From Thiomargarita sp. (GTDB lineage: Bacteria > Pseudomonadota > Gammaproteobacteria > Beggiatoales > Beggiatoaceae): a stretch of DNA of 41,474 nucleotides. The notes beneath the pieces are model-generated. The model was not told where the DNA came from, searched no databases, and saw nothing but the letters and a program-made list of their open reading frames with translations. Shown here in pieces: positions 22,164-22,841 of this stretch. The stretch is from the NCBI GenBank assembly GCA_020726335.1, contig DYSU01000016.1, positions 1-41,474 of the forward strand, given 5' to 3'. The number at the start of each line of letters is the position of its first letter. Within the stretch, counting starts at the first letter, position 1. A program made the translations under genes and the position numbers.

Positions 22164-22175
22164 TATAATGCGGCG
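22164..22175 (+). promoter_or_regulatory. Candidate promoter -10 with GC-rich discriminator
   Basis: A perfect TATAAT at 22164-22169 is followed by GCGGCG. The -35 (TGGTTT, 17 bases upstream) is poor. A GC-rich discriminator is a known feature of promoters repressed by ppGpp/DksA. It lies in the hflK/Met-heptad gene divergent region (22064-22262). Confidence 0.5.
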
Positions 22176-22243
22176 TTTTCTTACCATGAATGATAACAAG
22201 AGATGAAAGCTAAAAAAAGTGTTGTTGCACTTTAGCTTTTTTT
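22176..22243 (+). ncRNA. Short leader RNA ending in an intrinsic terminator (attenuator or sRNA)
   Basis: From the TATAAT at 22164 the predicted transcript would begin near 22176 and reach a hairpin with U-tract by 22243, giving an RNA of roughly 68 bases. A six-codon frame (MNDNKR) at 22185-22205 lies before the hairpin. The next gene begins 19 bases after the U-tract with its own strong ribosome-binding site. This could be an attenuated leader or a free-standing small RNA. Confidence 0.38.
22206..22243 (+). terminator. Intrinsic terminator upstream of the Met-heptad gene
   Basis: AAAGCTAAA (22206-22214) is complementary to TTTAGCTTT (22231-22239), and GTG/CAC closes an inner TTGTTG loop. 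Seven Ts run from 22237 to 22243. It stands before a gene rather than after one. Confidence 0.65.
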
Positions 22244-22262
22244 ATTATGGAAGGAGGAGCCG

Positions 22263-22841
22263 ATGTTTGAAAAAGAGCCACGTACGTTTTCACCTGAGTT
22301 TAAAAAATTATCGCCCGAACAAAAGGCGATGGTTAAATTAGAGATTACTTTATCACGCTTTTTTAAAACTTTTGACCGCAGCATCAGCCGTTGGGAACGG
22401 ATGATTTATCCTATGTTGCTGGTTTTGGGCATTTTAGGCTTATCAGGCTTTTATTTGATTTACAATATCACCAAAGACATGAATACCATGTCACACAACA
22501 TGGACCCTGACATGCAAACCAACTTGGCCAGCATGTCACAAAACATGGCCGATTTATCTAAAAACATCGCCATCATGACCAAACAAGTCGGCAAAATGAC
22601 GGGAAATATCGACAGCATGAGCCAAAATATTGCAGTGATGAATAAAAATATTTACAGCATGGACAAACACATCGGCAATATGGATGTCAATATGTCAGGC
22701 ATCAAACAAGATTTAGTCCAAATGAACAACACCATGCGCTTAATGAATGTCAACACAGGTTTGATGAGCCAAGACATGAGCGGTTTAAATCAACACATTG
22801 GCCGACCCGCTCGCTTTATCAGCAATTTTGCGCCATGGTAA
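22263..22841 (+). CDS. Membrane-anchored protein with a 14-heptad Met/Ile coiled coil
   Basis: A 192-residue protein: a charged N-terminal region, one membrane helix (about 48-68, YPMLLVLGILGLSGFYLIY), then an unbroken coiled coil. From residue 84 to 179 the sequence is 14 seven-residue repeats. Met occupies position a at 84, 91, 105, 112, 119, 126, 133, 140, 154, 161 and 168 (Leu or Ile at 98, 147, 175). Ile, Met, Leu or Val occupies position d at 88, 95, 102 and so on, except T165. Asn usually precedes d. The protein ends in GRPARFISNFAPW. GGAAGGAGGA gives a very strong ribosome-binding site. It lies 29 bases before purC. I do not recognise a named family; a membrane-tethered rod or scaffold is inferred. 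Confidence 0.8.
   Translation: MFEKEPRTFSPEFKKLSPEQKAMVKLEITLSRFFKTFDRSISRWERMIYPMLLVLGILGLSGFYLIYNITKDMNTMSHNMDPDMQTNLASMSQNMADLSKNIAIMTKQVGKMTGNIDSMSQNIAVMNKNIYSMDKHIGNMDVNMSGIKQDLVQMNNTMRLMNVNTGLMSQDMSGLNQHIGRPARFISNFAPW

Follow-up and report, generated by a model that had tools for sequence, protein, structure and literature searches.

Introduction

The sulfur globule proteins SgpA to SgpD are the closest described systems. In Allochromatium vinosum, the SgpD gene adjoins the gene of an RND-type (hydrophobe/amphiphile) exporter, and the SgpD protein has predicted helices. SgpD is the most abundant protein of the globule envelope, and its loss left growth and globule formation unaffected (PMC10386293). 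The building, positioning, and emptying of membrane-bounded sulfur globules are poorly understood, and few small envelope proteins are known. In the open-licence literature, I found no account of the protein family described below, nor of a dynamin-like protein or a methionine coiled coil tied to sulfur globules. The single paper found that mentions both reports SUP05 as lacking dynamin (PMC6509183).

Here I analyse a gene of Thiomargarita sp. that lies in a 41,474-nucleotide stretch of DNA (contig DYSU01000016.1), hereafter the window. It encodes a small membrane-anchored protein with a methionine-rich heptad repeat, and its features are collected in Table 1. The gene stands alone, with a divergent hflK on one side and purC downstream.

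Table 1. Features of the methionine-heptad gene and its flanks, in window coordinates.
Feature	Position	Strand	Basis
Leader hairpin (AAAGCTAAAAAAAGTG...CACTTTAGCTTT) followed by a T-rich run, 5' of the start codon	22205..22240	+	folding prediction
Strong Shine-Dalgarno GGAAGGAGGAG; pairing with the leader 5' of it is predicted	22249..22259	+	sequence; folding prediction
Gene for the 192-aa membrane-anchored Met-heptad protein, superfamily clade A	22263..22841	+	ORF present in the window
Cytoplasmic N-terminal segment, residues 1-49	22263..22409	+	clade-A alignment; near-invariant between genera
Single transmembrane helix, residues ~50-69	22410..22469	+	sequence; conserved SGFYLIY; model helix 18-76
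Juxtamembrane break with conserved DPxM, residues 70-83	22470..22511	+	alignment; model helix interruption 77-81
14 heptads, residues 84-181	22512..22805	+	shuffle test; Met at d 11/14, Ile/Met/Leu/Val at a 13/14
C-terminal cap GRPARFISNFAPW, residues 180-192	22800..22838	+	conserved; pN 0.039, pS 0.679
Intrinsic-terminator-like hairpin over the stop codon	22829..22846	+	pattern match only

The Methionine Heptad Repeat

The repeat comprises 98 residues arranged in 14 exact heptads without insertion or skip. The Met core column reads MMLMMMMMMIMMML (11 Met in 14 heptads). The other core column, filled by Ile, Met, Leu, or Val, reads LMIVIIIIMLMTMI with a single polar residue, Thr, and the residue preceding this column reads NNNQNNNHNDTNDH, where Asn takes 8 of the 14 places. 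The same residues were permuted 100,000 times, and the best heptad phase was scored each time. No shuffle reached 11 Met in one phase, the best shuffled phase having a mean of 4.1 and a maximum of 9. Likewise, M/I/L/V fill 27 of the 28 core positions, whereas the shuffles averaged 12.7 and never exceeded 20. The hydrophobic a/d heptads are continuous and above chance, as in a canonical coiled coil, and the 14 unbroken Met/Ile heptads of the original prediction are borne out.

Two details of that prediction needed correction. The exact repeat extends to residue 181 and not to residue 179. The residue pattern had been read correctly, but its labels were shifted by the assignment of Met to a: because the step from Met to Ile is four residues and that from Ile to Met is three, Met occupies d, Ile/Met/Leu/Val occupy a, and Asn occupies g. 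Nearly all Met residues of the protein are core residues. At the standard helix rise, 98 residues give a rod of about 14.5 nm, from which the predicted length of roughly 14 nm follows.

The single membrane helix that had been placed ahead of the repeats was confirmed. It is flanked by an R/K-rich stretch before it and a D-containing stretch after it, and thus the positive-inside rule predicts an N-in/C-out orientation. An AlphaFold2 monomer model built with 18 homologs was all helix, with helices at residues 18-76 and 82-179. Its mean pLDDT was 70.6 (mostly 75-80 in the repeat) and its pTM was 0.25; the coil is modelled with moderate confidence. Neither outcome that would have spoken against the coiled-coil reading was seen: the homologs keep the heptad phase, and the model is not a confident non-coiled-coil structure.

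Conservation of Clade A and the Superfamily

In a scan of named genomes, I found 44 relatives which are 45-73% identical to the window protein, nearly all of them full-length matches. Their hosts are Candidatus Venteria, Thiotrichales, Candidatus Thiodiazotropha, Sedimenticola, Thioalkalivibrio, and related MAGs. In a phylogenetic tree, 41 sequences sharing the N-terminus MFEKDPRTFSPEYKNLSPEQKAMVKLEI form clade A (branch support 99/88); the tree has few columns and long branches and was relied on for the clade-A split only. Clade A spans Beggiatoaceae, Thiodiazotropha, Sedimenticola, and Thioalkalivibrio. Its N-terminal segment carries the motif MFEK[ED]PRTF...LSPEQKAMVKLEI...RWERMIYP. In the clade-A alignment, conservation is strongest in the N-terminal cytoplasmic segment, in the SGFYLIY membrane helix, and in the cap. 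Between Thiodiazotropha species, pN and pS were 0.045 and 0.61 for the N-terminus with the membrane helix, 0.127 and 0.666 for the coil, and 0.039 and 0.679 for the cap. The conserved cap had been anticipated, while the equally conserved cytoplasmic N-terminus had been overlooked.

Gaps in the coil between genera are mostly multiples of seven columns, and most clade-A proteins fall into length series with steps of seven residues (188, 195, 202, and 216 aa; 192 and 199 aa; 208 and 215 aa). Thus, the heptad phase is kept, but the repeat number, whose conservation had been named as one sign of a defined family, varies, mostly by whole heptads. A defined family is nevertheless supported, with an N-terminus and a cap conserved across genera. 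Met occupies 67% of the d positions in the 41 clade-A sequences. Its share shows no correlation with GC content (r = -0.09) and is 66% in genomes above 60% GC. Since methionine has one codon only, this independence of GC content argues for selection of Met at d. A coiled coil with two-thirds Met in its d core, across genomes of 45-67% GC, is an unusual design.

Clade A belongs to a larger superfamily, whose plan is a cytoplasmic segment, one membrane helix, Met heptads, and an RPM..F.N.F.PW cap. The window protein has both the RWE..YP-membrane helix part and the cap, with the heptads between them. Paralogs without the MFEK N-terminus were found in the same and other genomes; they carry RWExxVYP, YGFFLIY, DPxM, heptads, and RPMSFxNxFxPW. 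A third, more divergent type (clade C) was found as tandem pairs. At two loci, such tandem divergent pairs lie directly 3' of RND adaptor and pump genes (L108:4193-9842 and L156:4462-10019). The window genome encodes the clade-A protein and one divergent paralog, which lies on contig 55 of the assembly (G000) and adjoins a PstB-like ABC ATPase gene (L104:675-2097).

Pfam and NCBIfam scans of the window protein returned generic coiled-coil matches only, none of them above a curated cut-off. DUF1664, BLOC1_2, and other coiled-coil profiles were rejected with a best score of 22 bits against the 34.6 required, and the SMC profile with 19.9 against 567. The sulfur globule protein family PF17228 was absent among the best 25 Pfam matches (E up to 10). 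A PDB sequence search with the window protein also gave generic coiled-coil matches only. Judged by these comparisons, the superfamily has no name and corresponds to no Pfam or NCBIfam family.

Distribution among Sulfur-Oxidizing Bacteria

Is the superfamily tied to a particular metabolism? I searched 369 Gammaproteobacteria genomes with the clade-A profile (cut-off E<=1e-8), a search that picks up the superfamily as well, and 77 of them proved to be carriers. In the same genomes, dsrA occurs in 118 and soxB in 150. At this superfamily level, which is not that of clade A alone, and among genomes that are related to each other, dsrA is present in 66 of the 77 carriers versus 52 of the 292 non-carriers (P = 9e-29). 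Either dsrA or soxB is present in 74 of the 77 carriers. Conversely, only three of the 205 genomes with neither gene are carriers, and one of the three is 55% complete. The association with dsrA persists at the level of families (33 of 36 families, P = 2e-16; 178 families in total, taken from genome labels). Thus, this unnamed family is almost confined to sulfur-oxidizing bacteria. The window genome itself has dsrA (contig 63). Members of the superfamily are present in a further class of the phylum as well; among 299 genomes sampled by phylum, 43 are carriers, the window genome aside.

In several genomes (L139-L142), no more than about 10 kb separate a superfamily gene from dsrAB, and some superfamily genes there sit between the dsr genes and the cytochrome c maturation genes.

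Genetic Partners of the Superfamily

The superfamily is accompanied by a dynamin-like GTPase for which two membrane helices are predicted. The GTPase is encoded in 62 of the 77 carriers versus 27 of the 292 non-carriers. Within the dsrA-positive genomes, the difference is retained (52 of 66 carriers versus 6 of 52 non-carriers, P = 7e-14). In 30 genomes, the GTPase gene lies less than 1 kb from a superfamily gene. A search by sequence found no PDB relative of this GTPase.

The second partner is the PF17228 sulfur globule protein, found in 52 of the 77 carriers versus 3 of 80 sampled non-carriers, 52 of which are dsrA-positive. Among the dsrA-positive genomes, PF17228 is present in 47 of 66 carriers versus 3 of 52 non-carriers (P = 8e-14). 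The three PF17228-positive non-carriers all have the GTPase and all come from families with carriers. In at least 13 genomes, a PF17228 gene and a superfamily gene are no more than 5 kb apart. Since 25 of the 77 carriers have no PF17228 match and 15 have no GTPase, neither partner is obligatory. The superfamily as a whole both occurs in genomes with PF17228 and adjoins PF17228 genes, whereas clade A co-occurs with PF17228 without direct adjacency. In the sample, all five clade-A genomes have dsrA and the GTPase, and four of the five have PF17228.

The partners meet in a recurrent gene block around clade B (L155:8989-10535, L126:8085-13171, L137:4032-11547, and L131:8976-12308). The block contains an RND adaptor and pump, secreted low-complexity proteins, a DUF4412-like protein, a ParA-type ATPase, a TPR membrane protein, and a DUF302 protein, and the dynamin-like GTPase gene lies immediately downstream of the clade-B gene. 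The RND pumps of the blocks score far below the curated cut-offs. An MlaC-like gene follows the block in L126 and L127. In the L155 block, two low-complexity proteins resemble PF17228, one with E 1.3e-17 and the other below the cut-off; bona fide PF17228 genes also occur in the blocks of L126 and L154. A Met-rich/low-complexity reading of neighbouring ORFs (e.g., L126:12718-13176) was discarded as wrong-frame, the true genes being those of sulfur globule proteins. The block looks like an undescribed system associated with sulfur globules.

Clade A can also be found in such company. In a Thiodiazotropha genome (G383 contig 21), a distance of 4.3 kb separates the clade-A gene from the gene of the GTPase, and an RND pump, a DUF302 gene, and a clade-B paralog share the same 17-kb stretch. 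In the window, no globule gene is near the clade-A gene. The window genome encodes the partners on other contigs: a GTPase (G000:C41:20384-21838 = L153:8426-9880), 50% identical to that of L137, and a PF17228 protein on contig 87 (L159:9207-9812, E 7e-12), whose gene is interrupted by an assembly N-run.

Elsewhere, at L123:1036-3933 and L124, a Met-heptad gene has cd1-type cytochrome-like genes as neighbours, together with a gene for a secreted coiled-coil/proline-repeat protein. This last protein agrees with what has been published on SgpD, to which it is likened by description only.

Expression Signals around the Window Gene

A very strong ribosome-binding site and the place before purC-porGA had been taken as hints of substantial expression. 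The site does exist, but it is predicted to pair with the leader, and high expression is unsupported. The leader (window positions 22170-22275) folds far better than its shuffles (z = -3.7), and neither the leader nor a strong Shine-Dalgarno was seen upstream of the orthologs in the other genomes examined. The hairpin, the T-rich run, and the sequestered Shine-Dalgarno may provide translational or attenuation control. The hint from purC-porGA finds no support, as the linkage is not conserved; the terminator-like site over the stop codon suggests that the transcript of the gene stops short of purC. An operon with purC-porGA and hflKC was rejected, both for this site and for clade-A neighbourhoods that differ between genera. 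Given the leader pairing, the orthologs without the Shine-Dalgarno, and the terminator-like site, co-expression with purC-porGA is not indicated.

Proposed Role and Alternatives

The window protein is probably part of a machinery that holds or shapes sulfur stores, a tie of the family that had been missed by the original prediction. As to how it might act, the most likely reading, at about even odds, is a periplasmic coiled-coil tether or spacer that would act around extracytoplasmic sulfur globules together with the GTPase. The rod would be anchored in the inner membrane and extend through the periplasm as a left-handed coiled coil of 14 heptads and about 14 nm, probably a parallel dimer. The low charge at e and g would permit mixing with paralogs. 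The hydrophobic cap at the far end might contact the sulfur globule envelope or the opposite envelope layer, or alternatively face the far side of the globule pocket. The cytoplasmic N-terminus would couple to the GTPase or the ParA-type ATPase, the repeat number would set a spacing distance, and the rod would hold the membrane pocket that surrounds the globule, or give it its shape. Clade A may share this role with its relatives adjoining sulfur globule genes.

More tentatively, the superfamily might belong to an undescribed membrane system for the sulfur globule compartment. This system would consist of the GTPase, the ParA-type ATPase, RND/DUF302/TPR accessories, and one or more coiled-coil tethers with a Met core, selection having favoured Met at d for a special core chemistry. 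Its stand-alone tether would be the window protein. The linked genes for the GTPase, the ParA-type ATPase, and the Met coiled coils are concrete genes for genetic work on globules.

A different use of the same blocks is rather unlikely. The proteins may be general envelope scaffolds which serve RND efflux pumps and Mla-type lipid carriers in sulfur oxidizers, for example in the export or movement of hydrophobic sulfur compounds or lipids, with no direct globule contact. Clade-B genes often share a block with an RND adaptor and pump, twice also with an MlaC-like protein, and in L108 and L156 the tandem clade-C pairs come immediately after adaptor-RND genes. However, RND genes are common, the pumps score far below curated cut-offs, and no RND gene lies beside the clade-A gene in the window. 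Furthermore, PF17228 separates carriers from non-carriers even among the dsrA-positive genomes.

The link to sulfur globules would also suit a helix lying flat on a sulfur globule or a membrane, with the Met/Ile face as a hydrophobic stripe, as in the coat helices of lipid droplets. The Met/Ile face is indeed very hydrophobic, and the polar face is almost without charge (8 K/R and 6 D/E in the 98-residue repeat). Surface helices usually show an 11-residue period, whereas here a strict 7-residue period over 14 heptads would make the stripe wind around most of the circumference of a straight helix. Asn at g and the d/a alternation fit a coiled coil. Strict heptads therefore favour a supercoil over a flat surface helix, and I consider the flat stripe improbable.

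Even less probable is an ordinary lineage-specific coiled-coil envelope protein whose sulfur link comes from shared ancestry. The carrier genomes are related and clade-A neighbourhoods vary, but the association persists at the family level and within dsrA-positive genomes, and the superfamily extends to a further class of the phylum, where PF17228 genes share its block. The redox sensing or soft-metal binding suggested originally has only the high Met content on its side, finds no support in the gene context, and is the least credible. Met is confined almost wholly to the core and kept in high-GC as in low-GC genomes, and the annotated neighbours include no recognised methionine sulfoxide reductase or copper gene.

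Comparison with Known Systems

A tether or spacer of the proposed kind recalls the DUF948, EzrA-like, and PRK09039-like spacer profiles, in which one membrane helix is followed by a long coiled coil and which match the window protein weakly. The scores are far below the cut-offs and typical of any coiled coil, and these profiles do not recognise the N-terminal motif, the Met at d, or the cap. Bacterial dynamin-like proteins (Dynamin_N, PF00350) enter through the genetic partner of the superfamily, which is itself a dynamin-like GTPase and is predicted to have two membrane helices, whereas the window protein has no GTPase domain. The Sgp proteins are secreted with a cleaved signal peptide and are rich in Gly, Tyr, Pro, and Trp or carry Pro repeats. 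In contrast, the window protein is membrane-anchored, without such a composition and without a PF17228 match. Nevertheless, the likeness to SgpA-C (PF17228) and SgpD of A. vinosum lies in the same type of organism and in the gene blocks: PF17228-type genes share a block with clade-B relatives, and the RND genes of the clade-B blocks parallel the RND-type exporter gene beside that of SgpD.
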